Shown: one piece after another, positions 1 to 16,452 of the stretch
Position numbering within the stretch: position 1 is the first letter of the stretch
How the letters are laid out: every line of letters begins with the position of its first letter
Assembly: GCF_002153425.1 (NCBI RefSeq)
Contig: NZ_KZ119600.1
Span: 297,276-361,275, forward strand
Direction of reading: 5' to 3'
Length of the DNA: 64,000 nucleotides
Origin: Litchfieldia alkalitelluris
Lineage (GTDB): Bacteria; Bacillota; Bacilli; Bacillales; Salisediminibacteriaceae
Made by a program: the position numbers and the translations under genes
Notes under the pieces: generated by a model
The model's input: the letters and a program-made list of their open reading frames with translations, nothing else
What the model was told of the DNA's origin: nothing
Databases searched by the model: none

Positions 1-90
1 TAACATTGGCTCTTTCCCCGCACTTACTGGCTCAGATGTCCGCAAACAGTGGATCAAAACTCCGCACTCCTGGCTCATTCTGTCCGCAAT
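1..90. repeat. Tandem-like TGGCTCA/TCCGCA repeats, possible insertion-sequence end
   Basis: Two 28-bp imperfect direct repeats (18-45 and 62-89) share CCGCACT, CTGGCTCA and GTCCGCAA. A third partial TGGCTC unit lies at 8-12. Short repeated units close to a terminus are typical of IS21-family ends, so this may be the edge of an element lying outside the window. No transposase is visible here, and the family assignment is a guess. Confidence 0.3.
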
Positions 91-247
91 AATCAGCCTT
101 TTCATACGGTCTCGAACCGATAGGATAACCGAACTGTCGCTCCATCTCAATTATAGTATGAAAGAAAGTGTTGCCGATTTAGAAGCAATTCGAGAAGATT
201 TTGGTGTTAAGGGTTACATTAAGAGGATTTTTATAATTATGGATTAG
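2..247 (+). other. Open frame entering from the window edge, unrecognised
   Basis: The frame is open from the left edge to the TAG at 245-247. Its last part, from an ATG at 158, encodes 29 residues (MKESVADLEAIRE and onward). The 5' half coincides with the repeated DNA at 18-89, so it is not convincingly coding. A rho-independent terminator follows at 291-331, which suggests that some transcript enters from the left. I do not recognise the protein; it may be the tail of a degraded gene. Confidence 0.2.
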
Positions 248-290
248 AAGCAGTAGAAAACATATGAAAACTGATAAATTCAAATTACAA

Positions 291-331
291 AAACCTTGAT
301 TGGCTTTAATGCCTTTCAAGGTTTCTTTTTT
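291..331 (+). terminator. Rho-independent terminator
   Basis: A 9-bp stem (AAACCTTGA at 291-299 with TCAAGGTTT at 316-324) is followed by a T run at 326-331. It ends transcription entering from the left edge. The stretch from 332 to 586 holds no gene that I can support. Confidence 0.75.
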
Positions 332-586
332 GCGGAACAACTTAGATGCAATTGCTTGCTGGATAAGTCTTTTATTGAAGAGTTTGGTTCATTAGAAAAC
401 AAATACTAAACTGTACTTTTCTCAATTCATTAGATTTTGTGGTTTTCACAAATCCTACAATTTGTTTTAAAACAGCCTTTGGAATTTATGATAGAGATAT
501 TTAAAGAAACTATAACAAATGTCATTATTAAGTAGATTCTAAATAACAATGCTAATAATAATAGTTAGCTTTGTGTGACTCTGTTA

Positions 587-1477
587 TTAGAACACATTTT
601 TACTAATTGAAATAAATGTATTAAGCAGTGGTGTGAGTTTTTTGTCTTTATGCCATGAGATGAAATGATAGATCTCCTGTTTTTCCTCATGAGACCAATC
701 AATAATTTTTAATTGACCTTTATCTACTTCTGCTTCTACTACTTCACTGGGTAATAAAGCAATACCTAAATCTGATTTCACACAGTTCTTTAACGTTTCG
801 ATGTTAGTAATTTCATAAGTAGAATTGAATTTAATTTGATAATCTAATAGCATATCTTCTAAAAGGTTTCTATATGAACAACCTTTTTCCGTAAGAATAA
901 GAGTTTCTTCGATTAAATCTTGTAATGTTAATTTTTTGTTCAGTGTCGCTTTATTATTTGGAGAAGACACTAATACTAATTTTCCTTTTGACAACCTAGA
1001 AACCGTAAGATTAAGATCCTCACTTATATCTATTCTAAAACTAAAAGCAAAATCCATCTTACCACTCTGAAGTTCTGACTGGATTTCCCAATGTTTGTGA
1101 ATAGGTTTGATAACCACTTTTACATTTGGAAATAAAATCTTCAACTCTTTTAAAACTTTTGGTAGCTTATATGCACATTGGCTTTCGGTTGCACCAACTA
1201 CAATAGTACTTGTCATATTGTTATCGTAATTAATCTCGTCAATAGCTGATTGATATTGAGAGATAATGGTGTTGGAGTAGACTTGAAATTTCTCTCCAAA
1301 TGGTGTTAATACTAATTTATTTCCAAGCCTTTCAAAAAGGTTGACCCCTAGTTCACCCTCTAAGCTTTTAATTTGAGAAGTCACACTAGACTGAGCATAG
1401 TTTAAAATCTCAGCAGTCTTGGTAAAATTTAATGTCTTACTCGCCATCTGAAATGTTAATAATTGCTTCATATCCAC
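587..1477 (-). CDS. LysR-family transcriptional regulator
   Basis: This is a 296-residue LysR-type regulator, the usual length for the family. Residues 1-60 form the winged helix-turn-helix (TAEILNYAQSSVTSQIKSLE, then LGVNLFERLG). The rest is the periplasmic-binding-like effector domain. The start is the GTG at 1477, preceded by a GGAG; an in-frame ATG lies two codons downstream. It is transcribed away from the LysW operon across a 140-bp shared promoter region, the classical arrangement for a LysR protein that controls the divergent operon. The inducer cannot be read from the sequence. Because the target operon makes a carrier-bound amino acid derivative, a pathway intermediate is a reasonable guess. 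Confidence 0.9.
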   Translation of the reverse strand: MDMKQLLTFQMASKTLNFTKTAEILNYAQSSVTSQIKSLEGELGVNLFERLGNKLVLTPFGEKFQVYSNTIISQYQSAIDEINYDNNMTSTIVVGATESQCAYKLPKVLKELKILFPNVKVVIKPIHKHWEIQSELQSGKMDFAFSFRIDISEDLNLTVSRLSKGKLVLVSSPNNKATLNKKLTLQDLIEETLILTEKGCSYRNLLEDMLLDYQIKFNSTYEITNIETLKNCVKSDLGIALLPSEVVEAEVDKGQLKIIDWSHEEKQEIYHFISWHKDKKLTPLLNTFISISKNVF

Positions 1478-1617
1478 TAAACTCCACTCCTATCGATAAT
1501 TCCGATTCACCCCATCAGTTTTTCCGACTGGGATATATAACCATATTATCATATAATTAACTTGTTCAGATAGGAAGTAACAATAATTTCAAATTCGAAA
1601 ACATAGGAGGAATTTAA
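1478..1617. promoter_or_regulatory. Divergent promoter region between the LysR gene and the LysW operon
   Basis: This is 140 bp of AT-rich DNA between divergent genes. It contains CCCATCAG...CTGGG and the palindromic ATTATCATATAAT, which may be operator or -10 elements. The ribosome site of the operon is AGGAGG at 1605-1610, eight bases before the TTG at 1618. A LysR box is expected here, but I cannot place it with certainty. Confidence 0.5.
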
Positions 1618-1791
1618 TTGAATAACCTTAGTTGCTTAGTTTGTCAATCTGATATCAAATTTGGGAATGAGTCTTTTGTTGGTGAAATCATTGAATGCTC
1701 GGACTGCGGAGAAGAACATGAAGTTGTAGAAGAAAATGGATCTTTGACAATTGGTTTAGCACCGGAGATCGAAGAATCGTGGGGAGAATAA
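1618..1791 (+). CDS. lysW: LysW-type amino-group carrier protein
   Basis: This 57-residue protein starts at a TTG behind a strong AGGAGG. It has two zinc-knuckle pairs, CLVC (residues 6-9) and CSDC (27-30), separated by a short strand region. It ends in EESWGE, very close to the EDWGE tail of LysW proteins. In characterised LysW systems the terminal glutamate gamma-carboxyl is joined by an isopeptide bond to the alpha-amino group of the substrate, and the acidic body of the carrier presents the substrate to later enzymes. The next genes are LysX, LysY, LysZ and LysK homologues, which confirms the call. It opens an operon running to about 10.48 kb. I take it as the carrier of a dedicated pathway rather than of lysine or arginine supply, because transketolase, DegT and exporter genes follow. 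Confidence 0.92.
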   Translation: MNNLSCLVCQSDIKFGNESFVGEIIECSDCGEEHEVVEENGSLTIGLAPEIEESWGE

Positions 1792-1800
1792 ACCTAGCCT

Positions 1801-2676
1801 ATGAGAGTTTTAATATGTGTTACTAAGTTACGAGATGAAGAAAAGATGATCATTAGCCAGCTAAATCAAAAGAATATAGAAGTAAAAGTCATCTTAGATT
1901 CCATGAGTCTTCCTCTAGAAGAAATATTCCAAGGGAGATTTAATTTAGCGATTATTCGTTGTTTGTCCCAATTAGAAGGGAAAAAAAGAGCTCGGATTCT
2001 AGAAAGTGCTGGGTTACGAACAATGAATAATTCAAAGGCCATTAACATATGTACTGATAAAATTCTTCAAGCCGTAATGTTTCAATAAAATGATATCCCT
2101 CAACCCGATTATATAATTGCATTTACACCTGCCGATTTAATGAAAAGACCATTTAAATTAGGAAACGAATTTTTAATTAAGCCGGCAACTTCTTCATGGG
2201 GACGAGGGATCAGTTTAATTGAAAACGAAAGATGCTTAGAGGCTTGGATAGCTGCAAGAGAGTCTTTGGATGTGAAGAATAAAGAATTCCCTGTTCTTGC
2301 CCAGGAGTTCATAAATAAAGGGGATTTTGATGTTCGTGTCGTTATTATTGGAGAATTGCCTGTCGTGGCTTTTAAACGAGTATCCGAAGAATCGTGGAAG
2401 ACAAATACGCATTTAGGTGCTTCCGTATTTCCAATACCAATTGATAATGAAATAAATGAATTGGTTCACCAGATTGTGAAAACCATAGGAGAAGGTGTTT
2501 ATGGTTTAGATTTATTATATGACTTTGCCCAAGAGAAATACGTAGTTTGTGAAATTAATCAAAATCCTGAATTTGCACAATCTTCGAAAATACACAAAGT
2601 TGACATTCCATTTTTTTTAGCAGATTACGTATATGATGTCATTCATCTAGAACGAGAGGAGAAAGTATATGGATAA
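1801..2676 (+). pseudogene. lysX: LysX/ArgX-type ATP-grasp ligase interrupted by one in-frame TAA
   Basis: This is the ligase expected to join glutamate (or a related amino acid) to the LysW C-terminus. Read in one frame it is about 291 residues, normal for LysX. The N-terminal part (1801-2088) has the IRCLSQ element and ends at a TAA (2086-2088). The same frame then continues NDIPQPDY and into the ATP-grasp core from 2140: IKPATSSWGRG (ATP binding), DVRVVIIGE, and EINQNPEF in place of the NHTMEF-type metal and substrate motif. The stop sits where LysX proteins have Lys/Gln in xAGLPQP, so one substitution (AAA, CAA or GAA to TAA) explains it. It could be a real nonsense mutation, a sequencing error, suppression, or two polypeptides that assemble. 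The ORF restarting at ATG 2140 has no strong ribosome site. Confidence 0.8.
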
Positions 2677-3289
2677 AAAGAAGCAATTTCAAATATCTTT
2701 TGTTTTATCTAGGGTCTTAAATTCGGGGATTATTATGAGTATTGAAAAGAATGAGAAAGAAATAAATGGACTTGAGAAATTGGTAGCCCAAATCACAAAA
2801 TTATCTTATGTTTCTGTTTTTAATAGCTATACAGGAGCTCTTCACGGAGCTCTTAATGGTAAGGATATAGTACATGGAGATTTTGTTACATTATCAAATA
2901 CATCAGAAAATGAACAAAAGTTTCTAAATTGGTTAGGTGTTTTTAATCTAAATAATAATGAAACTGATGCATTTGATAGGATATCGGTAAGTTGGGATAA
3001 CATTAGTGATTTTGAAAAAGTCCTTCTGAATCATTCAACAGTGGTTGTGGATCTGACTGATTTAGGATTTGGACCATGTGCTGTAGTTGCTACGGATGAA
3101 AAGTCAGTATGGGAGAAATCTGAAAGGCTTAAGATATTTGGAGCTTTTGATCTCCGTACAATGTGGACTCAAGAAGAAAGTCATCCAGACATCCAGCCTG
3201 GTATTCAGTTTAATTACAGAGTTAGCCCTTTGGTTGCTGCTTGTGCCAAGGTATCTTTGATAAAAAGAGGTGTAGCTGTTGAGAACTGA
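2669..3289 (+). CDS. Truncated, lysine-less DegT/DnrJ aminotransferase-like protein
   Basis: This 206-residue protein starts at the ATG at 2669 behind GAGGAG and overlaps the ligase stop by 8 nt. NSYTGALHGAL near residue 50 copies the NSGTSALHLAL turn of DegT aminotransferases, followed by GDFVTLSNT (compare GDEVITPSFT). FNYRVSPLVAACAKVSLI near the C-terminus mimics the YNYRMSELQAALG segment. The central region with the PLP-binding lysine is missing, and the protein is half the usual length. It therefore looks like a catalytically dead paralogue. The next gene is the complete enzyme, with overlapping coding ends, so a heterodimer with a regulatory or scaffold half is possible. It could instead be a decaying duplicate. 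The family call rests on a few motifs only. Confidence 0.6.
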   Translation: MDKKKQFQISFVLSRVLNSGIIMSIEKNEKEINGLEKLVAQITKLSYVSVFNSYTGALHGALNGKDIVHGDFVTLSNTSENEQKFLNWLGVFNLNNNETDAFDRISVSWDNISDFEKVLLNHSTVVVDLTDLGFGPCAVVATDEKSVWEKSERLKIFGAFDLRTMWTQEESHPDIQPGIQFNYRVSPLVAACAKVSLIKRGVAVEN

Positions 3290-4598
3290 TTTTTTTAAAA
3301 AACCACTAGATTTTCCTTCAGAGGAAATGATTTATGAAAACCTAGCTTATTTTGGTGGAAAAGCCATTCTTCCTGAAGACAACAGAAAGACAAATTTCCC
3401 ATACATTACAAAAGAAGATATTATGCAGATGTTGATTTCTATTCAACATGAGCCGAACAAAGTTATAGATGAATTTGCTAACAAATATAGGGGGTATGTT
3501 GGTGCTAATTATGCGATTCCTACAGCAAGTGGCACATCGAGTTTACACCTAGCTTTAGTAGGAGCAGGTGTTCAACCCGGCGATGAAGTTATTATCCCTA
3601 ATTTCACATTTATAGCTACAGCTCAGGCTGTAGTGGCTGCAAAAGCAATTCCTGTTTTTACGGATATTGATCCGAAGACATACTGTATGGATGTTACACA
3701 AGTAGAGGAATTGATTACTTCTAAGACAAAAGCAATTATGCCTGTCCATGTCCATGGGCTTCCTGCTGACCTTCCACAATTACAAGAGATTTGTTATAAA
3801 CATGGCATAAAACTTGTCGAAGATGCGTCTCATGCACATTCAGCTTCAATTGATAACAAAGTATGTGGATCTATTGGGGACGCTGCTGGACAGAGTCTAA
3901 TGGCAGATAAAAATTTTCCTGTAGGTGGAGAAGGTGGGATCGCGTTTTTTAAAAAAGAAGAGGACTATAACCGTGCTTTAGAATTCCTAGATGCTTCTGG
4001 GATTGACTACAGAATGTCATGGATAGCTGCAGCTTTTGGAATTAGTCAATTGGAGAGACTTCCTTATTACGATAAAGTGAGGGCACGTAATGCGCAATTT
4101 TTAAGTGACGCACTAGAAGAAACAGATTTGTTTATCCCTCCCTACGTCCCGGAAGGTTATCGACACAGCTATAATATGTACCGGATAAAATTAAATCCAG
4201 CAGCCAAGGGGTTAGAAGATTTAGAAGATTATAAGGTTAAGGAAGCTATCCAACGGATTATTATGGAAGAAGGAATTTTTGCAAGGGAATGGCAAAATCG
4301 TCCAATTCCTGGGCATCTACCATTCAAAAATCAAAAAGGATTTGGTAATCAGTATCCTTTTAGTCTAAGTGAAGTAAATAGGAAGTATAAGGTGTCTGAT
4401 TATCCTCAAACTTTAGATATGTTTCGAAATACGTTAACAATCTGTAGAGAACTAAGATCTCCAATCGAATATGAGAGAATTCAATCTTACGCACTAGCAT
4501 TCAAGAAAATAGATCAAAATCCAGATATGATTCGTAAGGTGGTAGAAGAAATTGGAGAATTAGAATTACCATACGAAAAGGATGCTAGATTAGGATGA
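3279..4598 (+). CDS. DegT/DnrJ/EryC1-family PLP aminotransferase
   Basis: The TTG start at 3279 follows AGAGGTG, overlapping the previous gene by 11 nt. The product is 439 residues. It carries the PLP-phosphate loop (ASGTSSLHLAL), the GDEVIIPNFTFIATAQA segment, the cofactor aspartate in VEDASHAH, and the aldimine lysine in MADKNFPVGGEGG (about K211). These enzymes transaminate keto groups, mostly of nucleotide sugars but also of other polyhydroxy substrates. In this operon the likely substrate is the ketone made when transketolase extends the carrier-bound semialdehyde, which would be a 6-amino-forming step as in DADH biosynthesis. That role is inferred from context. It overlaps the LysY gene by the ATGA quadruplet, indicating translational coupling. 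Confidence 0.85.
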   Translation: MRTDFFKKPLDFPSEEMIYENLAYFGGKAILPEDNRKTNFPYITKEDIMQMLISIQHEPNKVIDEFANKYRGYVGANYAIPTASGTSSLHLALVGAGVQPGDEVIIPNFTFIATAQAVVAAKAIPVFTDIDPKTYCMDVTQVEELITSKTKAIMPVHVHGLPADLPQLQEICYKHGIKLVEDASHAHSASIDNKVCGSIGDAAGQSLMADKNFPVGGEGGIAFFKKEEDYNRALEFLDASGIDYRMSWIAAAFGISQLERLPYYDKVRARNAQFLSDALEETDLFIPPYVPEGYRHSYNMYRIKLNPAAKGLEDLEDYKVKEAIQRIIMEEGIFAREWQNRPIPGHLPFKNQKGFGNQYPFSLSEVNRKYKVSDYPQTLDMFRNTLTICRELRSPIEYERIQSYALAFKKIDQNPDMIRKVVEEIGELELPYEKDARLG

Positions 4599-5638
4599 GC
4601 TCAACAATTAAAACAGCAATTTTAGGTGGCGGAGGCTTTGTTGGGATGGAAATTTACAGAATATTAAAGAAACAAGTGAATGTTTCTATTGAATTTGTTT
4701 CCTCCGAATCATTAGTTGATCAGCCTGTCGAGAAGTACTACCGGATGTTCAAAAATAAAAATAAGCAGTTGAAGTTTAAACCGATTAGTCAACTTGAAGA
4801 TGGGTATGACGTTATATTCTCATGTCTCCCTACAGGAGTTTTACCTATATATATTGATAGAATTAAGTCTAAATCTAAAGTTATTTTTAATGTAAGTGGA
4901 GATTTTAGACTTCAAGATCAGTATCAATTAGAAAAATACTATCCACAAACACTTAATACAAATACTTACTTAGAATCACAGTATTATATCCCTGAATTTC
5001 ACGAATTAGATAAAGAGTCTAAAATCATTAATTTACCAGGATGTATGGCTGTAGCTAGTATTTATTCTCTTTATCCCTTGGTGAAGAACAATTTGATTGA
5101 AAACAAAATTGTAATTGATGCCAAGACAGGATCGAGTGGGGGCGGGAAGAAATCTACGGAACATCCAGCTGAGAGAGCTCACAATTTGCGGCCACATAAG
5201 GTTCATGGTCATCGTCATAAACCTGAAATATGTCATGTCTTTGAAAGTATGTTTGGAATTGCCTTGGACCTGCAGTTTTCTACATATAGTTTAGACTTAC
5301 CTCGTGGAATTATGGTAACTTCTTACACTCAATTAAAAGAAGATATTTCAGAAATTGATGTCAAAAAGTCATACTTTCGTGATTATAAAGGGATGCCATT
5401 TATTGATTATATAAAAGATACTAGAGGGGGACGATTTAATCCGATGATTAAATCTGTAGCAGGGACTAACAGAGTGGAAGTCGCTGCTTATGTAGATGGT
5501 AGAAATTGTGTTTCAATTTGTACATTAGACAATCTGATTAAAGGGGCTGCTGGGCAAGCTATCCAAGCATTTAATCAATATTTCGGATACCCAGAGTTCC
5601 AGTCCTTAAATTTTCATAATGAAGGGATGTGGCCATAA
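4595..5638 (+). CDS. lysY: LysY/ArgC-type carrier-glutamyl-phosphate reductase
   Basis: This is a 347-residue NADPH-dependent semialdehyde dehydrogenase. The N-terminal nucleotide-binding loop is LGGGGFVGMEIYRIL. The catalytic cysteine is in NLPGCMAVAS, and TGSSGGGKK and the His-rich HKVHGHRHKPEI follow, as in N-acetyl-gamma-glutamyl-phosphate reductases. LysY enzymes reduce the LysW-bound gamma-phosphate to the aldehyde. Placement directly after a LysW/LysX pair and before a LysZ kinase supports action on carrier-bound glutamyl phosphate rather than acetylglutamyl phosphate. The start at 4595 overlaps the upstream stop (ATGA). The stop at 5638 lies 10 nt inside the next gene. Confidence 0.88.
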   Translation: MSSTIKTAILGGGGFVGMEIYRILKKQVNVSIEFVSSESLVDQPVEKYYRMFKNKNKQLKFKPISQLEDGYDVIFSCLPTGVLPIYIDRIKSKSKVIFNVSGDFRLQDQYQLEKYYPQTLNTNTYLESQYYIPEFHELDKESKIINLPGCMAVASIYSLYPLVKNNLIENKIVIDAKTGSSGGGKKSTEHPAERAHNLRPHKVHGHRHKPEICHVFESMFGIALDLQFSTYSLDLPRGIMVTSYTQLKEDISEIDVKKSYFRDYKGMPFIDYIKDTRGGRFNPMIKSVAGTNRVEVAAYVDGRNCVSICTLDNLIKGAAGQAIQAFNQYFGYPEFQSLNFHNEGMWP

Positions 5639-7518
5639 TTACTCAATTGTACGTTATTAAGGTGGGGAGTAGTACAGCTCTTTCTTCGAATCATACCGTT
5701 TTTGAACAGATTCGGAAAATTTCGGATAAAGGGAACCAAGTTCTTTTAATCATTGGTGGAGCTACAGGTATAGTGGAATATTATGAGCAAATCCAAAGGA
5801 AAGAGTCATATTTGGAACTGAGTAATGGTGTTCAGGCCAGGTATTGCAATCGAGAAGAAATGAATCATATCTATAATGCTTATGACCAAGTCATGATTCC
5901 TTCCATAAAAAACAATTTACAACACCTTGGATTAAAAACGTATGTACAATGTGCGGGAGACCAAGGTGTTGTAACTGGGAAACAAGGTCCTCCCCTTAGA
6001 GCTAGAGTAAACGGTAAGAAGAGAATTGTGCGAGATTCTTTGTATGGTTCTTACTTTGATTGTGAAACCCAATTGATCCACTCATTACTAAACGATTTTC
6101 ACGTTGTCTGTTTCACACCTCCTATTAAGGATTCAGAGAATCCGAGTAATTATCTAAATATTGATGCTGATATGCTAGCAGCACATTTATCTGTTCATAT
6201 GAAAGCTCATCATCTAAGGTTTGTTACGGGAACTAACGGCCTATTAAAAGATATTGATAAACCATCATCAACCATCAAAAATATTTACTCTAATGATTCT
6301 TTAGAATTTGTAAAAGGGAGAATGAAACAAAAAGTACGGGCAGCTCAACTAGCCATTAAAGATGGAATAAGTGATGTCTGCATAATGGGTCCTTCAATGG
6401 AACCTCAAAAGTCGACATGGTTTTGGAATATGGATGGATATAACAATAACTATGATATTATCAATAAAATTGTTCGTATACCTTCTGTATCTAGAAATGA
6501 AGAAGAACTTACAAATTATCTATTACACAACATCCAATTTCCTGGGGTTAAAAATTCAATAGATCCAGCAGGCAACATTGTATTTGAAAAGGGGGCTGGA
6601 GAACAAACTCTTTTGTTACTAGGTCATGTAGATACCGTTCCTTATTTATGGAAAGTAACAAATGATGAAAAGATGATTACTGGAAGAGGTGCCGTAGATG
6701 CGAAAGGATGTTTTGCAAATTTCATTCAGATGTTAAGAGATGTGGAAGTTCCGAAAAACGGTAAATTAAAAGTCATTGGAGCTGTAGAAGAAGAAGTATC
6801 TTCATCTGCAGGAGCTTATTACGTAAGAGATCATCATCCAGCTGATGCTGTGATTATTGGTGAACCAAGCGGAGAACATAATCTTACTTTAGGTTACCAT
6901 GGATTACTTAAATTAGGCGTTACAATTCAAAAAAGCCAAAAACATAGTGCGTCTAGGGATAATGTAAGTGTGGCAGACCTTTATTACTCTATAAAAAAAG
7001 ATTTAGAAGAAAGGGTAAAGGCAGTCGATTCAAATCATGTAGTAACCACAACCAGGATTAATCAACATAAAAGAGAAAATATAGATGTCTTAGAAGCGAT
7101 CTTAAACTTTAGAATCTCTCCAGGAATAAATGTTGATTACCTAAAAAAACTCAATTTAAAGATTTCTGAAGAAGTAACTATTAATGTCTTGAGAGCTACA
7201 CCAGGATATATGAATAAAAGGAATTGCCCATTAGTCAAATCATTTGCTAAGAGTATGGCTTCGGAAAAAGTGAAAATTAAGTATCTGAAAAAAACAGGAA
7301 CGAGCGACATGAATACCTTGGCAACTAAATGGGTTAATACACCCATGGTAGCTTATGGACCTGGCGATTCCCATCTTGACCACACAAATGAAGAATTTCA
7401 AATATATGAGGACCTGGATCGTTCTAGGACTATATTAAAAGGTGCTATTGACCAATGGTTTTCTCATTTATCGGAGGTGGAGACCGTTGATCATCAATCA
7501 AAAGTTACTCACTATTGA
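5629..7518 (+). CDS. Fused LysZ-type amino acid kinase and LysK-type M20 carboxypeptidase
   Basis: This 629-residue protein joins two enzymes that are normally separate. Residues 1-265 are an amino acid kinase (VIKVGSS, IIGGATGIV, LNIDADMLAA, KGRMKQKVRAAQLAI), as in LysZ, which phosphorylates the gamma-carboxyl of the LysW-bound substrate. Residues 270-625 are an M20 metallopeptidase: GHVDTVP and VDAKG (metal ligands), EEEVSSSAGA (catalytic Glu), IGEPSG, and a C-terminal GDSHLDHTNEE. LysK cleaves the isopeptide bond and frees the product from the carrier. The GTG at 5629 is only just downstream of GAAGGG; a TTG at 5644 is an alternative start. Fusing the first activating step to the last release step ties the whole cycle to one polypeptide and strongly supports a carrier-based pathway. 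Confidence 0.88.
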   Translation: MAIITQLYVIKVGSSTALSSNHTVFEQIRKISDKGNQVLLIIGGATGIVEYYEQIQRKESYLELSNGVQARYCNREEMNHIYNAYDQVMIPSIKNNLQHLGLKTYVQCAGDQGVVTGKQGPPLRARVNGKKRIVRDSLYGSYFDCETQLIHSLLNDFHVVCFTPPIKDSENPSNYLNIDADMLAAHLSVHMKAHHLRFVTGTNGLLKDIDKPSSTIKNIYSNDSLEFVKGRMKQKVRAAQLAIKDGISDVCIMGPSMEPQKSTWFWNMDGYNNNYDIINKIVRIPSVSRNEEELTNYLLHNIQFPGVKNSIDPAGNIVFEKGAGEQTLLLLGHVDTVPYLWKVTNDEKMITGRGAVDAKGCFANFIQMLRDVEVPKNGKLKVIGAVEEEVSSSAGAYYVRDHHPADAVIIGEPSGEHNLTLGYHGLLKLGVTIQKSQKHSASRDNVSVADLYYSIKKDLEERVKAVDSNHVVTTTRINQHKRENIDVLEAILNFRISPGINVDYLKKLNLKISEEVTINVLRATPGYMNKRNCPLVKSFAKSMASEKVKIKYLKKTGTSDMNTLATKWVNTPMVAYGPGDSHLDHTNEEFQIYEDLDRSRTILKGAIDQWFSHLSEVETVDHQSKVTHY

Positions 7519-8302
7519 TCGTTTAGAAGTCAGAAGTCTTGAGGAATTATCCAAAAAAGCAAGGGAGACTATTGTAGAGATTGCAGCTACAGATACTGGC
7601 TGTCATATAGGAGGAAGCCTTTCTGTAATTGATATGTTGATTGCATTATTTGTTAAATTTCATTCAGATGATCAAAGCCAAATTATATTAAGCAAAGGAC
7701 ATGCTGCTGCAGCCTTGTATTCTGTTCTATATGTTAAAGGTATCTTAAAAGACAACCCTGCAGAAAGTTATGGAAAAAGTGACTCTTTATTAACGGGACA
7801 TCCTAACCATAAAATCATAGGAATTCCCTATTCGACTGGAAGTTTAGGGCACGGCATTCCTTATGCAGCTGGATGGGCTCTTGCTCAGAAATTAAAAGGA
7901 TCGAATGGAATTGGAGTAGCGGTGTGTGGAGACGGTGAACTTCAAGAAGGGCTTTGTTGGGAGACATTCCAAGTGGTGCAGGCGAAACAAATTCATAACT
8001 TTGTGTGTGTAGTAGATATAAATGGGGCTCAAAATGATGGATATGTCCATACTATCTCCTCTTTAGAAAATCTTAGAGAACGGTTCGAGTCGTTTGGATT
8101 CGAGACGTTAGAGATTAATGGACATGATTTTGAAGAAATAATTAGATCATTAAACATAATTGGTAGATCTTCAAAGCCCTTAGCAATCTTGGCTCATACA
8201 GTTAAAGGAAAAGGTGTACCGGATATTGAAGGAAATCCCAATTCCCACTATGCAAAGATCCCTCAACGTTTAAAAAACAAATGGAAAAGGAGTATTTTAT
8301 GA
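7487..8302 (+). CDS. Transketolase N-terminal subunit (ThDP-binding)
   Basis: I place the start at the TTG at 7487, behind GGAGGTGG, 32 nt inside the previous gene. Longer frames upstream have no ribosome site. The product is 271 residues. SKGHAAAALYSVL and the ThDP/Mg motif GDGELQEG, with a following IN at about 30 residues, mark the pyrophosphate-binding half of transketolase. Together with the next gene it makes one complete enzyme, the split form common in secondary metabolism. Transketolase moves a two-carbon ketol unit onto an aldehyde. The aldehyde here should be the carrier-bound glutamate semialdehyde made by the LysY homologue. Split transketolases perform this step in the Streptomyces vazabitide pathway. 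The C2 donor is not evident. Confidence 0.88.
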   Translation: MIINQKLLTIDRLEVRSLEELSKKARETIVEIAATDTGCHIGGSLSVIDMLIALFVKFHSDDQSQIILSKGHAAAALYSVLYVKGILKDNPAESYGKSDSLLTGHPNHKIIGIPYSTGSLGHGIPYAAGWALAQKLKGSNGIGVAVCGDGELQEGLCWETFQVVQAKQIHNFVCVVDINGAQNDGYVHTISSLENLRERFESFGFETLEINGHDFEEIIRSLNIIGRSSKPLAILAHTVKGKGVPDIEGNPNSHYAKIPQRLKNKWKRSIL

Positions 8303-9228
8303 CTTTATCTGGAAGGGATGCTTATCGTGACCAATTGACGAAACTAGCAGAATATAATCATAATATTTTGTGTTTAGAAGCAGATTTGGGTGGGGCTAAT
8401 CATACATTCCAATCAGAGTTTCCAGATCGTTTTTTTAATATGGGAATTGCTGAAATGACAAGTATTGATATGGCTGCTGGATTAGCCGAGGCTGGCTATG
8501 TTCCTTTCTTTTCTACATTTGCACCATTTGCATCACTACGTGCAGCTGAAAGTATTAAATTAGCAATGGGATATATGGGGAAAAATATTAAAGTAATAGC
8601 TCCCTACGGAGGAGTATCAGGAGGATGGTTCGGTACCACTCATCATTCTTTAGAAGACATTGCAATTATTAGATCCTTTCCTAACATTAAGATTGCTTGT
8701 CCTTATGGAGAGGAGGATACAAGAAGAGTTATTAGCGAGGCTGCGTCATCTCTCCATCCTTACTATGTTCGTTTATCAAGAAATGAGGCATTTGCAAGCC
8801 TTGAAAGAGAAGAAAAATCTGCTTTTTCTGCTTTAATCAATCAAAAGGGTAATGGGGATGTTTGTTTAATTTCAATAGGTGAACAAGGAACAGAATTGTG
8901 TAAGAAAATACAAGAGAACTATCCAGAAATCTCCCATGTTCATCTATGTTATGTGGATCAATCAAGTTTGTTGGATGCAGTTGTTCAAATAAAAGAACTT
9001 GGAAATGAATTTCTTGTCGTCGAAGAACATAGGTTAGCTGGTGGAACAGCATCTTTGTTATCTATACTTTTGCCTGACAAACGAGTCTATTCTTTTGATT
9101 GCGGTGAAGAGTGGCCTGTATATGGAGGAAACCATAAAGAAACTCTTGCACATTTGAAATTTGATTCGGAAAACTTAGATAGAAAAATAACAAACATATT
9201 AAGTGATGTCGTAAAGCCAAAAATATAG
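8299..9228 (+). CDS. Transketolase C-terminal subunit
   Basis: The start is the ATG at 8299, overlapping the previous stop by 4 nt (ATGA), with AAAAGGAG eight bases before it. The product is about 309 residues and covers the pyrimidine-binding and C-terminal domains: FFNMGIAEMTSIDMAAGLAE (the conserved Glu that activates ThDP), PFFSTFAPFAS, and a C-terminal fold with VEEHRLAGGTAS. Translational coupling to the N-terminal subunit fits a heteromeric enzyme. Its proposed role is the carbon-extension step of the carrier pathway, inferred from the operon. A 1-deoxyxylulose-phosphate synthase is less likely because the two halves are separate and match transketolase in length. Confidence 0.88.
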   Translation: MTLSGRDAYRDQLTKLAEYNHNILCLEADLGGANHTFQSEFPDRFFNMGIAEMTSIDMAAGLAEAGYVPFFSTFAPFASLRAAESIKLAMGYMGKNIKVIAPYGGVSGGWFGTTHHSLEDIAIIRSFPNIKIACPYGEEDTRRVISEAASSLHPYYVRLSRNEAFASLEREEKSAFSALINQKGNGDVCLISIGEQGTELCKKIQENYPEISHVHLCYVDQSSLLDAVVQIKELGNEFLVVEEHRLAGGTASLLSILLPDKRVYSFDCGEEWPVYGGNHKETLAHLKFDSENLDRKITNILSDVVKPKI

Positions 9229-9246
9229 AAGATGAGGAGACACAAA

Positions 9247-10482
9247 ATGGATATTCAAAAGATAGTTGCTTTTGTTGAGCCAAGCTTTTACGGGGTGGAT
9301 TTTGTAGAGAGAACCTACAAGAAAGGATGTCAAGTGATAGCGATAGGATCTTCACTAGATAACCCTAAAAAATATGGATATGAGAATTACTATCACGATT
9401 TTTTAATCGCTGATATTAGGGATCCAAAATCCATATATAATGCGATTAAGAATTCAAAATATGATGGTAAATTAGATGCTTTAATTCCTGCAACCGATTA
9501 TGCTTCTCACTACACAGCTGAGGTAGCTGAATGGCTGTCACTACCGACCATTCCTTCATTTGCCGCTAACAATGCACGGAACAAAGATTTAGCACGTCAT
9601 GCTTATCAGAAGAACAAAGTACCGAGTGCGTTATATGTTAAAGTATCAGATGCTGTGCAAGCATGTGAAGCTGCCTCTAGCATCGGTTATCCGGTAGTCT
9701 TAAAACCCACCAACTGTGCAAGTAGCCAGGGTGTATTCTTTATTAATAATAAAGAAGAATTGCTTCAAGCGTTCCAGAAGTTAAGGGAGTTCAAAAAAAC
9801 ATATATGGGATTTGATGTAAGTACAGATTATTTAATTGAAGAGTACTTGGTGGGGCCAGAATTTAGCGTAGAGCTTTTCCTAAAGGATCAAAAAGTTATT
9901 TTTTCATCAGTTACAGAAAAGGAAACCTCCGATCTCCCATTCTTTGTAGAGATTTCCCATACAGTACCAACCTCTACTCAATTGGATAAAGTTGAAGAAA
10001 TGGTTGAAGTTAGTGTGCAGGCTATGAGGGCGATAGGGATTGATAATGGTCCGAGCCATGTAGAAATTAAATTGACCCTTTCAGGCCCTAAAATTATTGA
10101 AGTAAATGGGCGTCCTGGCGGAGATCAAATTGCTTCGCAATTGCTCTTTAATACGTATGGATTCGATATTTTTGAAGAGACTGTTAATTTTTATTTGAAA
10201 TTACCAATAAATGAACATTATCCAGCTAAAAAAGCAACATCTATTGCTTATTTAACCTCTCGAAACAATGGTGAAGTCTCAAAAATCCGTGGAATCGAGA
10301 ACATAAAGCAGGACCCTTCAGTAATAAAATTTGAAATTAATGTTCAACCAGGAGATTTAGTGAAAATTCCAGAAAGTTCAGATGATCGATTAGGGTATGT
10401 GATAACCACAGGAGAGAATGCCGTCGAGGCCAAACGTAAGGCTATGAATCTGATTAATACTATCCAATTAGTTTACGTTTAA
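9247..10482 (+). CDS. ATP-grasp carboxylate-amine ligase
   Basis: The start is the ATG at 9247, seven bases after AGGAG; an ATG at 9232 lacks a ribosome site. The product is 411 residues. It has the three-part ATP-grasp layout: an N-terminal Rossmann-like domain, the ATP lid (GYPVVLKPTNCASSQGV, IEEYLVGPEFSVEL) and the metal site (VEIKLTLSGPKIIEVNGRPGG). It resembles L-amino acid ligases and carbamoyl-phosphate-synthase-like ligases that form amide bonds with acyl-phosphate intermediates. As the last enzyme before the exporter it probably couples the released amino acid to another amino acid, giving a dipeptide-like product. Acting on the carrier instead of LysX is possible but less likely, because the LysX-type motifs are absent. 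Confidence 0.8.
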   Translation: MDIQKIVAFVEPSFYGVDFVERTYKKGCQVIAIGSSLDNPKKYGYENYYHDFLIADIRDPKSIYNAIKNSKYDGKLDALIPATDYASHYTAEVAEWLSLPTIPSFAANNARNKDLARHAYQKNKVPSALYVKVSDAVQACEAASSIGYPVVLKPTNCASSQGVFFINNKEELLQAFQKLREFKKTYMGFDVSTDYLIEEYLVGPEFSVELFLKDQKVIFSSVTEKETSDLPFFVEISHTVPTSTQLDKVEEMVEVSVQAMRAIGIDNGPSHVEIKLTLSGPKIIEVNGRPGGDQIASQLLFNTYGFDIFEETVNFYLKLPINEHYPAKKATSIAYLTSRNNGEVSKIRGIENIKQDPSVIKFEINVQPGDLVKIPESSDDRLGYVITTGENAVEAKRKAMNLINTIQLVYV

Positions 10483-10502
10483 TCCCCTAATAGCCGTTTA
10501 GA

Positions 10503-10545
10503 AACCCTCACAAGTCATTTGAATTTGTGAGGGTTGGTATTTAAA
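10503..10545 (+). terminator. Rho-independent terminator after the biosynthetic operon
   Basis: An 11-bp perfect stem (AACCCTCACAA at 10503-10513, TTGTGAGGGTT at 10525-10535) is followed by a T-rich but broken run. It separates the enzyme genes from the exporter, which has its own promoter region from 10546 to 10662. Confidence 0.65.
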
Positions 10546-10662
10546 CTATTTTTTAAATTTCCCAACGATTTATTCGATGGTCCTTATTCAAAATATCCGT
10601 TTTACGTCTAAGAATCCCTACGTTAGTATTTAATTAAAGTATATCTATAAAGAGGTGTTAAT

Positions 10663-11877
10663 TTGTCAATCTTAAAAAGGAAAAACTTCATGTTCTTTTT
10701 TCTTGCAGACATCATTTCAGGATTTGGTGTTGGGATGAGTACGATCGGAGCTAATTGGTATTTGCTAGATAAGACAGGTGCGTCAAGTGCAGTGGGAATT
10801 ATGTTAGCTCTTAATGTACTTGCTGGATTTCTTGTTTCTCCTATAACAGGAACCCTAATCGATAGGTTTAATCGAAAAGTAGTTATTCAATTAACTTTTA
10901 TATTGCGGGCAGTAGCTATAGGGATTTTAACAGCTGCTTTTATATTTGATGGGTTTACTATAGGTTACATTTATTTATTTGCCATTATTAACGGGATTGG
11001 CTGGAGTATATATATGTCTGCCTCTCGAAGTCTTATTCAAGAATTACTTCCTGAAAGTGACTTATCTAAAGGTAACTCTTTGATTGAGATTAGTTTACAA
11101 GTCGGTATGTTTATGGCCGGTGCAGCTTCTGGATTTATTTATAAGTTTGCTGGATTTGAAACCATTTTATTAATTAATTGTTTAATGTTTGTTGTTAGTA
11201 GTCTATTTATAATTTTTGTTAAATATCAATCTATCTTGTTAGAGGATAAAGAGGATAGTTTTATAAAATCCTTTAAGAAAGGAATACATTACTTACGTTC
11301 ACACCAATTTATCTTTTTATTGGGGTTTGTATCTATAATTCCTTTAGTGGTAACTATGACCTTTAACGTAGTTTTACCGGAGTATGTGAGTGGAACCTTA
11401 AATGCAGATTCTATCGTCTTTGGTCTCTCAGATATGGCGTACGGAATCGGAGGATTAATATCTGGTCTCATAGCAGCCCCTTTTGCAAGGAAAATCACGA
11501 AAAATAGAGCTTTATCAATTATCTTCACTTTATCTGTTTTAACTTTAGTTGGTTTATCCTTGAATTCTTTAGTAATCATGATTTATCTCGGTAGTTTTTT
11601 AATTGGTTTTTCAAATTCCTCGATAAGAATTATCATGAACACGATGCTTATGGAAATTGTCCCCAAGTCTTTAATGGGCAGAGCAATGTCTGTATGGATG
11701 GGAATTTCTTTATTTCTTCAAGCTATATTTGCAGGAGGTCTTGGATTAATTATTGATATTTTTTCTCCAGGTGTAGGTTTTATGTGTATGGGAGCAATAA
11801 TGTTAGTTGGATTAGTTCTACATTTTTATATTTCCAAACGTATAAGCAATTCATATTATAAAAAAGAGGTGGTATAA
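10663..11877 (+). CDS. MFS transporter, probable product exporter
   Basis: This 404-residue integral membrane protein starts at the TTG at 10663 after AGAGGTG. It has about 12 predicted membrane segments and the A-like motif between helices 2 and 3 (GTLIDRFNRK), as in drug:proton antiporters. RALSIIF and the GRAMSVWMGISLF segment lie in the second half. It sits between the ATP-grasp gene and a flavin reductase, in the same orientation. Export of the small molecule made by the operon, and hence self-protection, is the natural reading, but the substrate is unknown. It ends directly against the next start (TAA then ATG). Confidence 0.85.
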   Translation: MSILKRKNFMFFFLADIISGFGVGMSTIGANWYLLDKTGASSAVGIMLALNVLAGFLVSPITGTLIDRFNRKVVIQLTFILRAVAIGILTAAFIFDGFTIGYIYLFAIINGIGWSIYMSASRSLIQELLPESDLSKGNSLIEISLQVGMFMAGAASGFIYKFAGFETILLINCLMFVVSSLFIIFVKYQSILLEDKEDSFIKSFKKGIHYLRSHQFIFLLGFVSIIPLVVTMTFNVVLPEYVSGTLNADSIVFGLSDMAYGIGGLISGLIAAPFARKITKNRALSIIFTLSVLTLVGLSLNSLVIMIYLGSFLIGFSNSSIRIIMNTMLMEIVPKSLMGRAMSVWMGISLFLQAIFAGGLGLIIDIFSPGVGFMCMGAIMLVGLVLHFYISKRISNSYYKKEVV

Positions 11878-12450
11878 ATGAGAGTAGGTATAATTTATGG
11901 AAGTACAAGAGATCAAGGAAATACAGAGAGATTAACTGAAGAAGTTATAAAGTACTTACCGAACGTAACTAAAATCAACCTTAAACACTACCATATTAAA
12001 GATATTATAGATCAGAGGCATGAAGTTCACGGTTTTTCTCCAGTAGAAGATGATTATGATCAAATTATTGATCAATTACTAGAGTGTAAAGTTTTAATTT
12101 TTGCTACACCAATTTATTGGTATGGTATGACCAGTGTAATGAAACGTTTCATAGATCGATGGTCTCAAACTGTTAGAGATAAAAGTTATCCCAATTTTAA
12201 AGACCTAATGAGTGATAAACAAGCTTATATTATTGCAGTTGGAGGGGATAACCCCAGAGTAAAAGGTCTGCCACTAGTACAACAGTTTTCGTATATTTGC
12301 CAATTTATCGGATTAAATTATAAAGGGTTTGTGTTGGGAGAGGGCATTAAGCCTAATGATATTTTAAATGACAATCAGGCAATAGAGAATGCTCGTAAAC
12401 TTGGAGAATTATTAAAGAAAAGAAATCAAATAGATATTCTAAATCAATAA
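11878..12450 (+). CDS. NADPH-dependent FMN reductase / flavodoxin-fold oxidoreductase
   Basis: This is a 190-residue flavodoxin-like protein. The N-terminal phosphate loop is YGSTRDQGNTERL, and TPIYWYGMTSVMKRFIDRW contacts the flavin in this family. It starts at the base after the exporter stop, with AGAGGTGG upstream, so the two are co-transcribed. It may reduce FMN for a monooxygenase elsewhere or reduce a quinone or nitro-type group directly. No flavin monooxygenase is present in the operon, so its part in the pathway is unclear. It may serve tailoring or protection. Confidence 0.82.
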   Translation: MRVGIIYGSTRDQGNTERLTEEVIKYLPNVTKINLKHYHIKDIIDQRHEVHGFSPVEDDYDQIIDQLLECKVLIFATPIYWYGMTSVMKRFIDRWSQTVRDKSYPNFKDLMSDKQAYIIAVGGDNPRVKGLPLVQQFSYICQFIGLNYKGFVLGEGIKPNDILNDNQAIENARKLGELLKKRNQIDILNQ

Positions 12451-12712
12451 GAAAAAAGGATTTAGAAATATATAAGGATATTGTATGAAGTAAGAAGCAG
12501 AACTAATTTGAATGCATTCCTGACTTTCGGAATTGACACACTAATCTATTTATAAAATATAAGGAGCTCATCGTTATAAATTGAACATTTGGCTCCTGAT
12601 TCTCTTCCTAATAATGGGGGGATAGAGGTATTCTATTTTATAGAGTACTTTTTTCTAATATAACTAATTCGCACTGAATAAGTTAACGATATTACTAAAA
12701 AATGAGAAAATA
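12451..12712. other. Non-coding stretch containing a 16-bp copy of the island repeat
   Basis: I see no gene. AAGTTAACGATATTAC at 12680-12695 exactly matches positions 14132-14147 inside the long direct repeat, and TCGCACT lies just upstream in both. It is likely a fragment of the same family of repeats that flanks the island to the right. Confidence 0.45.
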
Positions 12713-12746
12713 CCAAACCTTTGATGTAAGGGGTTTGGCGTTTTTT
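12713..12746 (+). terminator. Rho-independent terminator
   Basis: CCAAACC (12713-12719) pairs with GGTTTGG (12732-12738), followed by CG and six Ts. It lies just before the IS200-like element and ends the exporter-reductase transcript. Confidence 0.7.
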
Positions 12747-12754
12747 AATGGTTT

Positions 12755-13470
12755 TGAAAACCCCTGGCTATGGCGGGGGTTCTAAAGAGCTTATAGCGTG
12801 GTATTAAAAAAACCTCACTTCATGTAGGATAAAGTTGTTTTCCCGACCACTTCATCTCACCATAGAAAGAGGTATGCTCTGGGAAGGACATGAATAGTTT
12901 AGCCCACACAACATGGAATTGTAAGTATCACATAATATTTGCCCGAAAGTACAGAAGACAGGTCATTTACGGAAAATATAAAAAGAGAATTGGACAAATC
13001 ATAAGAGATTTATGTGAACGGAAAGAAGTAATTATCCATGAAGCAAAGTCTTGTCCTGATCACATCCATAAGTTAGTCAGTATCCCACCCAAGTTGAGTG
13101 TCTCTCAATTCATGGGTTACTTACAAGGAAAAAGTAGTCTTATGATATTCGATCGTCACGCCAATTTGAAGTATCGATATGGAAACCGAAAATTCTGGTG
13201 TCGTGGATTCTATGTTGATACTGTGGGGAGAAATAAGAAACAAATACAAGAATATATTAAGAATCAGCTGTAAGAAGAATACATGGGTGATCAGTTAACA
13301 TTATTCGAAGAATATAACCCATTTACCGGTGAGAAAAATAAGAAGAAATAATGAAATTCTTTAGAATTAGTGAGTGAATGTGGTACAGGTGGGAAACCCT
13401 TTTAGGCCGATGTCGGTAAGAGAGGCTTTTGCCGCAGAGCAAACCACAAGTTCACATTGGTGGTTTTGAT
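12755..13470 (+). mobile_element. IS200/IS605-family insertion sequence
   Basis: A single transposase gene lies between subterminal hairpins. The left hairpin is AACCCC at 12759-12764 with GGGGTT at 12776-12781. The right hairpin is AAACCAC at 13441-13447 with GTGGTTT at 13460-13466. This layout, without long inverted terminal repeats and with no TnpB, is that of the IS200 group, which moves as single-stranded DNA. Exact ends cannot be fixed without an empty-site comparison. The transposase reading frame is shortened by a stop codon. Confidence 0.75.
12890..13273 (+). CDS. tnpA: IS200-type Y1 transposase TnpA with a premature stop
   Basis: This is a 127-residue Y1 HUH transposase. TWNCKYHIIFARKYRRQVIY opens the protein. 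The HUH pair is in CPDHIHKLVSIPP, and the catalytic tyrosine is in the helix IQEYIKNQL. A TAA at 13271-13273 stops the frame, but the same frame continues EEYMGDQLTLFEEYNPFTGE to a TAA at 13349-13351. A full protein would be 153 codons, the normal size. IS200 proteins usually read NQLQEDY here, so a CAA to TAA change fits. The catalytic residues lie before the stop, but the lost tail helix may matter for activity. Confidence 0.85.
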   Translation: MNSLAHTTWNCKYHIIFARKYRRQVIYGKYKKRIGQIIRDLCERKEVIIHEAKSCPDHIHKLVSIPPKLSVSQFMGYLQGKSSLMIFDRHANLKYRYGNRKFWCRGFYVDTVGRNKKQIQEYIKNQL

Positions 13471-13543
13471 TGAGTATTAAATAACATTTGGAAAGTGCGA
13501 TTAACGGTAAATAACTAGTTGTTATTTTTAACAGGCTGTAACT

Positions 13544-13860
13544 ATGTCTACTGTATTATATACTTCAAATAATGGACAAAATATCACTGTAGTGGAATAT
13601 ACTGGTTCAACTGCAGTTTCTGGTTTAAAAGGCTCACTTAGCCAAGATGGAAAACAACATACTATTCCTGTAGGGATTGGACACATTAATGGAACATATA
13701 CTGTAACATCAGTCGTTGAAAAGGTAGAAAATTGGTTATTCCATTTTCTTTTATGATCATTTAAAACATACAAGATGAACCAAAAGCAAGTACAACGTTT
13801 GGTAAAAAGAATTGGAGTCAGATGGTGTTAAGATTGTTGGTAAGGGAGTTGGAACCAAAT
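13544..13860 (+). pseudogene. Degraded gene remnant, unrecognised
   Basis: A 70-codon frame (13544-13756, MSTVLYTSNNGQNITVVEYT and onward) has a protein-like composition rich in Gly, Thr and Val. A second short frame just downstream ends DGVKIVGKGVGTKYIYFP near 13875. Together they may be frameshifted pieces of one former gene. There is no ribosome site and I do not recognise a family. The low-confidence reading is a decayed accessory gene beside the insertion sequence. Confidence 0.25.
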
Positions 13861-14024
13861 ATATTTATTTTCCTTAATAAAATGTAGACAAAAGGGGACA
13901 TTATTGGAATTAACACCTTAATGAACAAAGTACCAATTAGGAAATAAGGACAAAATAAGGACAAAAATTAATTGTTACATAAAGAATCTTATCATCTATT
14001 AAAGTCCTTTGACCAAAAAAAGCG

Positions 14025-14176
14025 TTGCTAACATTTTGCTAACGCACTCCAGTGAAAAACAGTAAAATCAAGTTAAAGATGTTACAGTAAGATTTTAACA
14101 GAACCCTGATATACCGCACTCTACACACACCAAGTTAACGATATTACACACTCTCACCTTAGGGGCGGCATGATGT
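14025..14176 (+). repeat. 152-bp direct repeat, left copy (island boundary)
   Basis: The stretch from TTGCTAACATTTTGCTAAC to GGGCGGCATGATGT recurs at 22093-22244 with the same length and, by my count, about 19 mismatches (roughly 87% identity). It starts with tandem TGCTAAC units; an inverse-spaced pair TTTGCTAACAAAATGCTAAC follows at 14219-14239. Such arrangements resemble arm and core sites of an integrating element. No integrase gene is in the window. Confidence 0.7.
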
Positions 14177-14252
14177 GATAGCTGCTCAACCCCTTGATCT
14201 ATAAGGGTTTTGAAGTGATTTGCTAACAAAATGCTAACATAATGTAAAAAAA

Positions 14253-14296
14253 GAAGCTTCTCAAAGGTTCGTAACTTGTGGGAGGTTTCTTTTTTA
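14253..14296 (+). terminator. Terminator-like hairpin of the GAAGCTTCTC family
   Basis: GAAGCTTCTC (14253-14262) pairs with GGGAGGTTTC (14280-14289) using several G-U pairs, followed by seven Ts. Similar hairpins occur at 17691, 22273, 24560 and 58641. No gene is seen from 14297 to 14661, which should hold the promoter of the next operon. Confidence 0.6.
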
Positions 14297-14661
14297 TCTC
14301 TTGCGTAATTTGAAGTAATCTAGTACGACGTGACCTACTTCCCGCTCCATGATTTATTTGTGTCATCTTCCGCAATCTTTGGGTGTACCTTTAACTAGAT
14401 GTTAATTCTCAATTCAGTTTAGCGAGTTTGTTTGTACTTGGTCCCTTACGTTTTTTCTTAAGTATCATAACTAAATGCTGTACACTTTTACAAAGATAAA
14501 AAAGTTATATTAATGAAATGTTTTATTGCTATGTGTGATTCTTGCAGTACTGGTAGTACTCTTTATACGGAATTTAGGTAGCTGTGTTGTATGGGGGTTT
14601 TTATTTAAGCTAACATCATCTATAATTAAATTAGAATGAATATATTAATTAAGGTGAGATT

Positions 14662-15513: not shown

Positions 15514-15514
15514 T

Positions 15515-16450: not shown

Positions 16451-16452
16451 TC

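Follow-up and report, generated by a model that had tools for sequence, protein, structure and literature searches.

Gene content and conservation of the operon

The DNA analysed here (the window) comprises 64,000 nucleotides of Litchfieldia alkalitelluris, bases 297276–361275 of contig 1 in a 4.88 Mb genome of six contigs. On its forward strand, at 1618–12450, lies an operon built around a LysW-type amino-group carrier protein. A preliminary description of this DNA had read this block as one co-directional set comprising LysW, LysX, LysY, LysZ and LysK functions, a two-subunit transketolase, DegT aminotransferases, an ATP-grasp ligase and an exporter. All of these components were present, co-directional and at the coordinates described; however, the block is only partly confirmed, because lysX is interrupted by an in-frame stop codon. 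The gene order is LysW, lysX (two pieces), small DegT, large DegT, LysY, a LysZ-LysK fusion and a split transketolase, and 3' of the transketolase pair lie genes for an L-amino-acid ligase, a major facilitator superfamily (MFS) transporter and a flavodoxin-like reductase. Every operon gene had a family match in Pfam or NCBIfam, except the small DegT gene and the missing middle of lysX. A divergent LysR gene, not named in that description, precedes the operon. The features are as follows (aa, amino acids; PLP, pyridoxal phosphate).

587–1477, − strand: LysR-type regulator, divergent from the operon (PF03466 and PF00126)
1502–1518, no strand assigned: imperfect inverted repeat CCGAT...ATC(A/G)G in the lysR–lysW gap, candidate LysR site (read by eye in the gaps of the window and of loci L005 and L096)
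1618–1791, + strand: LysW-type amino-group carrier protein, C-terminus EESWGE (PF21344; LysW structures in PDB)
1801–2088, + strand: lysX 5' piece, pre-ATP-grasp domain (PF22626, 42 bits)
2140–2676, + strand: lysX 3' piece, RimK/LysX ATP-grasp domain, same frame as the 5' piece (PF08443, 71 bits; LysX structures in PDB)
2669–3289, + strand: small DegT-fold subunit without the PLP lysine, 206 aa (8y96 chain C, 211 bits; model match 8y98_C)
3279–4598, + strand: large DegT/DnrJ aminotransferase subunit, 439 aa, lysine 211 kept (8y96 chain A, 606 bits; PF01041, 231 bits)
4595–5638, + strand: LysY/ArgC-type reductase (TIGR01850, 260 bits, cut-off 233.6; trees)
5629–7518, + strand: LysZ-LysK fusion, amino-acid kinase plus M20 [LysW]-hydrolase (PF00696, PF01546, TIGR01902)
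7442–8302, + strand: transketolase N-terminal subunit, TkN (PF00456, 91 bits; split transketolase 6yak)
8281–9228, + strand: transketolase C-terminal subunit, TkC, with Tyr109 and Trp116-Phe117 (PF02779, 98 bits; split transketolase 6yaj)
9232–10482, + strand: L-amino-acid ligase, ATP-grasp_4 plus LAL_C2 (LAL_C2, 73 bits; BL00235 structure 3vot, 103 bits)
10663–11877, + strand: predicted MFS exporter (PF07690, 127 bits; PF05977, 64 bits)
11878–12450, + strand: NADPH-dependent FMN reductase/flavodoxin-like protein (PF03358, 73 bits)
12713–12738, + strand: terminator-like hairpin past the last operon gene (weak: the scanned sequence has 7 such sites, and chance alone would give 6.1)

The true start of TkN is probably nearer 7500 than the called 7442, and the MFS protein scored 96 bits with the EntS model, under its cut-off of 324. 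The LysR protein is 67% identical to a LysR at the equivalent place in L005, and a LysR gene was also found in L096. The expected LysZ and LysK functions are both there, but joined in a single protein of 629 aa (kinase about 7–252, M20 hydrolase about 278–610), which was above the cut-off of TIGR01902 and below those of NF003367 and NF010659. The ATP-grasp ligase could be specified, from its LAL_C2 domain, as one of the L-amino-acid ligase type.

A scan of species genomes, for which four large DegT proteins were aligned, gave 69 loci; with three plasmid loci the set reached 72. Of the 72, 67 have all eight core genes in order. They are distributed over Firmicutes, Actinobacteria and Proteobacteria, so the gene set is not a chance assembly. 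The five incomplete loci are three that start at a contig end (L038, L059, L062), in which the genes from the DegTs to TkC are present, and L075 and L076, which are not relatives. L073 was counted as complete though broken by many frame changes, and in L074 the large DegT gene is in two pieces. LysZ and LysK share a single open reading frame in 69 of 70 operon loci.

The LysW frame matched PF21344 with 46 bits (cut-off 27), which confirms the described homologue, and it was the sole LysW match in the genome at an E-value of 0.001. The WGE C-terminus is found in 66 of the 67 LysW proteins listed, the exception coming from the broken L073.

The lysX frame is cut by a TAA codon at 2086–2088, and both pieces share one frame. 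We compared the two sides of this stop with L096, the nearest relative found, which belongs to the same order and has lysX in one frame. The ratio of nonsynonymous to synonymous substitution rates (omega, NG86 method) was 0.107 before the stop and 0.064 after it. Twelve stretches of the operon, the reductase gene left out, gave a range of 0.046–0.138, at synonymous distances of 0.83–1.71 that make these values rough. Since the lysX values lie within this range, the stop is either recent or a sequencing error; selection thus appears to have held lysX until recently, unless the TAA is such an error. Among the 67 full-core loci, three (L056, L064 and L073) lack an unbroken full-length lysX frame, and in L056 this may be just a matter of the start position. 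As lysX is interrupted, the LysW pathway may be switched off in this genome. That the operon here is a decaying remnant with no product is a substantial possibility, though one that we lean against. The in-frame stop, the IS200-type transposase gene directly downstream and the occurrence of LysW in just one of nine genomes of the genus speak for decay, while the remaining frames of the operon are open and the omega values on both sides of the stop point to a recent event or an error.

The two-part aminotransferase and the transketolase active site

The DegT aminotransferases of the preliminary description turned out to be one subunit of 439 aa with the PLP lysine and one partner of 206 aa without it, the latter matching chain C of 8y96. 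The match of the large subunit to chain A of the same structure spans its full length, while the small one had no Pfam or NCBIfam match at an E-value of 0.001. All 71 large subunits counted retain the PLP lysine. In the small subunits the corresponding stretch, matched by eye, reads LTDLGFGP-like, with any lysine in those 12 residues in only 2 of 72 (residue counts here and below omit L073 throughout, L048 in TkC and the two-piece L074 in the large DegT). Because the small subunit is without the cofactor lysine, the DegT pair probably forms one two-part enzyme. The title of records 8y96–8y98, released on 2024-12-18, names a heterooligomeric aminotransferase of Serratia sp. ATCC 39006, one form having PPE bound, which we take to be a PLP-glutamate adduct. 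The large Serratia chain is identical to that of the Prodigiosinella locus L035 over 204 of 204 residues compared. This system is known here from record titles, and a description of its pathway was absent from the open-licence papers listed in the literature searches.

AlphaFold single-chain models of the two subunits had mean pLDDT values of 81.5 (small) and 79.6 (large). The small-subunit model matched 8y98_C in structure comparison. For the large subunit the next best match after the Serratia chains was Fic25 of Streptomyces ficellus, at 31–32% identity over the fold, and the Fic25 matches include a complex with a PLP-(5S,6S)-N2-acetyl-DADH adduct (DADH, 2,6-diamino-5,7-dihydroxyheptanoic acid).

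Streptomyces is known to make unusual amino acids on carrier proteins. LysW was found in 21 of 150 Streptomyces genomes, and we classed 25 regions of this genus, one of them (L118) from a genome reached another way: five are of the two-part type, 12 have a single Fic25-like aminotransferase, four have a transketolase without DegT and four are incomplete or other. Fic25 is 50–86% identical to the 12 single aminotransferases and about 35–39% to two-part large subunits among the matches listed. The comparison loci are Fic25-like by sequence and may not include the actual vazabitide or ficellomycin clusters. Single-type loci have no small DegT subunit, and all 11 of them that encode both LysZ and LysK do so in separate frames. 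Three of the four loci that lack DegT have the two joined in one frame, so the fusion is not special to the two-part lineage. These four Streptomyces loci (L117, L149, L152 and L153) carry LysW, LysX, LysY and a split transketolase, the DegT gene being absent in the stretch; in L117, L152 and L153 the LysZ-LysK fusion lies on the opposite strand and scores 298–303 and 385–398 bits with profiles of the two-part lineage.

In trees of TkC (46 rows) and LysY (52 rows) the 30 two-part rows formed one side of a branch with 100/100 support. These rows comprise 22 chosen from the 72 loci, L096, L098, the five of the Streptomyces sample and the window. The single-aminotransferase loci are not one group, requiring two changes on the TkC tree and five on the LysY tree.

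The catalytic glutamate and two arginines were present in 71 of 71 TkC rows, and four histidines, Asp164, Gln168 and Asn194 in 72 of 72 TkN rows. On alignment with human transketolase, His416 corresponds to Tyr109 of TkC and Glu423-Asp424 to Trp116-Phe117, and Tyr109, Trp116 and Phe117 occur in 71 of 71 rows. We take the human His416 place to be one that binds the donor phosphate. In the split transketolase of Carboxydothermus the histidine and the Glu-Asp pair are kept at these places; this enzyme is described as active as a tetramer with two of each chain (PMC7661550). Sixteen Streptomyces TkC proteins of the two other types all have histidine at the 109 place, mostly His-Leu at 116–117, and leucine (11), phenylalanine (3) or tyrosine (2) instead of the aspartate. 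Thus the aspartate is lost in the operon and in Streptomyces alike and its loss is shared among the types, while the change of histidine to tyrosine is found solely in the two-part lineage. Changes at Asp469 of E. coli transketolase, the residue equivalent to this aspartate, were part of shifting its acceptor towards non-polar aliphatic and aromatic aldehydes (PMC5073344), and the loss seen here would fit an acceptor aldehyde without a neighbouring hydroxyl.

These residues raise the possibility that the operon makes an amino acid of the same class from another two-carbon donor or with other stereochemistry, the product being a hitherto undescribed epimer or analogue of DADH. Tyr109 with Trp-Phe at 116–117 throughout the lineage, set against histidine with mostly His-Leu in the Streptomyces proteins, points in this direction, as do the different, two-part aminotransferase and the separate clade. 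Yet both arginines, taken as phosphate ligands, are retained, and tyrosine may serve the same donor. We hold such a product to be somewhat unlikely.

Relatives, distribution and neighbouring genes

Lys-type enzymes are shared with ordinary lysine and arginine synthesis, and the LysY of the operon is above the cut-off of the ArgC family. A spare lysine or arginine pathway is nevertheless very improbable and we rejected it. In a LysY/ArgC tree of 76 rows, the 72 operon rows lie on one side of a branch with support 100/99, and the ArgC of this genome and three LysY proteins of the ordinary LysW pathway on the other (the program flagged long branches, own ArgC above all). LysA (518 bits), ArgJ (535 bits) and a separate ArgC adjoining ArgJ are encoded elsewhere in the genome, and the three ordinary Firmicute LysW loci scanned had no transketolase, DegT or ligase match. 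The preliminary description had named a phylogeny joining all Lys-type enzymes to ordinary lysine or arginine synthesis as evidence that would overturn it; LysY groups apart from these, so that for this enzyme the description is not overturned. The trees cover LysY and TkC.

LysW is patchily distributed. With the own genome counted each time, it occurs in one of nine genomes of the genus, in four of 397 of the order at an E-value of 0.001 (three above the cut-off) and in 36 of 398 of the phylum at the same E-value (15 above the cut-off). Wide regions from two other genomes of the order both carried the two-part operon; of four from the phylum, one carried it and three had the ordinary LysW set. 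Hosts of the 72 loci include Paenibacillus, Kroppenstedtia, a Clostridium metagenome-assembled genome, Chromobacterium, Chitinimonas, Prodigiosinella, Kosakonia, Streptomyces and other Actinobacteria, and the plasmid loci come from Pseudalkalibacillus, Staphylococcus epidermidis and Streptomyces camelliae. Compared with L096 and L005, the window LysY shows 85% and 71% identity and the large DegT 88% and 81%, respectively, while the ordinary ArgC proteins reach 52% (L096) and 57% (the genome to which plasmid L005 was assigned). LysY and DegT being far closer than ordinary ArgC, this comparison, together with plasmid carriage, supports horizontal transfer of the operon. In the Staphylococcus epidermidis locus (L006, 13372–22092) the operon lies on a 54 kb plasmid from human blood, with the MFS and reductase genes upstream.

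The remark that no characterised Firmicute example is known held in so far as the open-licence papers listed in the literature searches included none on this operon type in Firmicutes and no described product of it. The operon itself is not rare, with 24 Firmicute loci in one scan. A Bacillaceae LAP region with 4% similarity to vazabitide A, noted in passages of one source (PMC12272613), was not counted as the same thing.

All 24 Firmicute loci that the scan gave have the MFS and ligase genes next to the core. The reductase exceeds 150 bits in 20 of them, reaches 31 bits in L027 and is missing from L012, L019 and L021. Loci of Actinobacteria and Chromobacterium have other ATP-grasp ligases, an SBP_bac_5 gene or an amino acid permease in place of these neighbours. 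(Neighbour clusters 0–6, interpreted as antisense shadow frames of GC-rich loci, were discarded in this comparison, and L073, L075 and L076 were left out.) Upstream of the operon in Clostridium L021 we observed homocitrate-synthase-like and aconitase genes, which are probably part of a different pathway.

If opine metallophores are taken as a model, the product might be a peptide for metal binding or signalling that leaves the cell through the MFS protein and is later re-imported. Of the 24 Firmicute loci, 15 have a complete Opp importer set upstream in the same orientation, as judged by similarity clusters with representatives checked by Pfam; the set is on the opposite strand in L063 and partial in L011 and L028. 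In Kitasatospora L036 a gene for an Opp-type binding protein (SBP_bac_5, 15770–17593) directly follows tkC and may be a second link between the two-part lineage and peptide uptake. Kosakonia L037 and its near relative L073 have divergent TonB receptor and FecCD-type transporter genes, and a flavin reductase belongs to the operon. However, the TonB case is one lineage, no Opp-type gene stands beside the operon in the window or among the annotated features of L005 and L006, and the L017 binding protein scored 251 bits with Opp4A (cut-off 650) and 80 with CntA. Moreover, a clear Fur or Zur box was absent in the 12 upstream regions scored (of 28 prepared), which in scan loci were the 300 bases before lysW and need not contain the promoter. 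The best Fur matches were 8–10 of 14 (shuffle means 8.4–9.8) and the best Zur matches 10–14 of 20 (means 11.0–12.4), a few Zur scores being 2–3 above the shuffle mean, whose spread was not computed. On balance we consider a re-imported peptide of this kind improbable.

Riboswitches and T-boxes gave no Rfam match at the gathering threshold in six Firmicute loci. Within positions 1–20000 of the window Rfam gave just two sub-threshold Thr_leader matches, at 17666–17758, outside the operon; this hairpin scores on both strands and lies before a helicase gene.

As for the other features of the window, a defence-like island at 14662–21704 follows right after the operon and encodes a Cll-like protein (63 bits), a RES-domain protein, a helicase of 910 aa matching PDC-S53 (1326 bits) and an AbiH protein. 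Between it and the operon, at 12890–13273, lies the IS200-type transposase gene, of the Y1 type. Farther on, at 30778–42842, two NeuB-like genes, a DegT aminotransferase gene, a UDP-GlcNAc 2-epimerase-like gene and others form what looks like a cluster for a legionaminic/pseudaminic-type sugar.

Proposed pathway and comparison with known systems

The gene content and order of the operon, their conservation, the separate ancestry of LysY and TkC, the active-site residues and the structural relatives are shown by the analysis. From these we infer the substrate, donor, stereochemistry and product, as well as the ligase partner, export, regulation and fate of the peptide. We consider it probable that the operon encodes a carrier-protein pathway for a nonproteinogenic amino acid of the DADH type, which is ligated into a small exported peptide. 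LysX would attach glutamate, through its amino group, to LysW at the carrier's C-terminal glutamate. The LysZ half of the fusion would phosphorylate the side-chain carboxylate of the bound glutamate, and LysY would reduce it to the semialdehyde. The split transketolase would then add a two-carbon ketol unit to this aldehyde, whose neighbouring carbon has no hydroxyl, and the two-part DegT enzyme would aminate the new ketone with L-glutamate as amino source. The LysK half would free DADH or a stereoisomer, the L-amino-acid ligase would link it with a further amino acid, and the resulting peptide would leave through the MFS protein, with the LysR regulator presumably controlling the operon. The sequence of loading, reduction, extension, transamination, release, ligation and export proposed in the preliminary description thus fits the gene content, while in our account glutamate loading, carrier modification and DADH as product keep a conditional standing.

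Several points weigh against this pathway. Its lysX gene is interrupted in the Litchfieldia alkalitelluris genome itself, and TkN His252, a candidate active-site residue, is histidine in only 10 of 72 rows. Tyr109 in place of histidine may mean a different donor or stereochemistry, and hence a different product, and LysX could load alpha-aminoadipate, which would give a C8 product. Since actinobacterial relatives carry other ligases or a permease, the end product cannot be read from the core. Finally, the catalysis proposed for these enzymes is predicted by comparison of sequences and structures.

A bolder form of the DADH-type pathway, which we judge unlikely, would have a class of carrier-protein pathways that moved between phyla, partly on plasmids. 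In it, a transketolase without the phosphate-binding histidine would use a different donor or set a different configuration, the pseudo-aminotransferase subunit would shape a new C7 amino acid, and the small peptide containing it would be re-imported by a dedicated Opp importer in some Paenibacillus. Carrier-protein synthesis and the structure of the Serratia aminotransferase, an enzyme of this lineage, were known already; the lineage combines a two-part aminotransferase, a fused kinase-hydrolase and a distinct transketolase active site. Its genes for probably related chemistry form a single compact module that occurs in Firmicutes, Proteobacteria and Actinobacteria and is sometimes plasmid-borne. 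Over 60 loci in which the core is complete offer material for reconstituting the eight-protein pathway and for seeking a new family of small peptides.

LysW-dependent lysine and arginine synthesis in Thermus and archaea uses the same carrier, ligase, kinase, reductase and hydrolase families. The operon belongs with such amino-group-carrier-protein pathways, having a LysW with the WGE end and homologues of LysX (interrupted), LysZ, LysY and LysK beside it, but differs from the ordinary loci in the added transketolase, DegT and ligase genes and in a LysY of a separate group. The bacilysin-type system, in which an L-amino-acid ligase is paired with an MFS exporter, follows a similar logic. Its amino acid supply is different, however, and the operon ligase, weakly similar to BacD structures, is nearer to BL00235 (3vot). 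The Serratia sp. ATCC 39006 aminotransferase has, as here, homologous large and small subunits in the same gene order, and the Prodigiosinella locus with the identical large chain carries this core together with MFS, ligase and reductase genes; the differences are the proteobacterial host and, in that locus, a reductase gene that precedes lysW.

Carrier-bound synthesis of DADH has been described for vazabitide A, a nonribosomal peptide (PMC9303977), and the operon, with its L-amino-acid ligase, would depart from that mode of assembly. Its two-subunit transketolase with catalytic residues and its Fic25-related DegT-fold aminotransferase both fit synthesis of this kind. The azabicycle of azinomycin is made by a kinase, a reductase, a two-gene transketolase and an aminotransferase leading to acetyl-DADH, with N-acetyl protection (a carrier protein being the alternative), followed by sulfation and aziridine formation (PMC9570651); these four activities are common to the operon, whose Pfam scans, unlike that route, gave no sulfotransferase. 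The preliminary description had equated the operon with the vazabitide set, and LysW, LysX, LysY, LysZ, LysK, the split transketolase and a DegT-fold aminotransferase are indeed shared with the Streptomyces Fic25-like loci of the vazabitide A/ficellomycin type. That type, however, has a single aminotransferase, separate LysZ and LysK and histidine rather than tyrosine in TkC, whereas the window operon has a small DegT subunit and a LysZ-LysK fusion and stands outside it, as a separate clade, in both trees.

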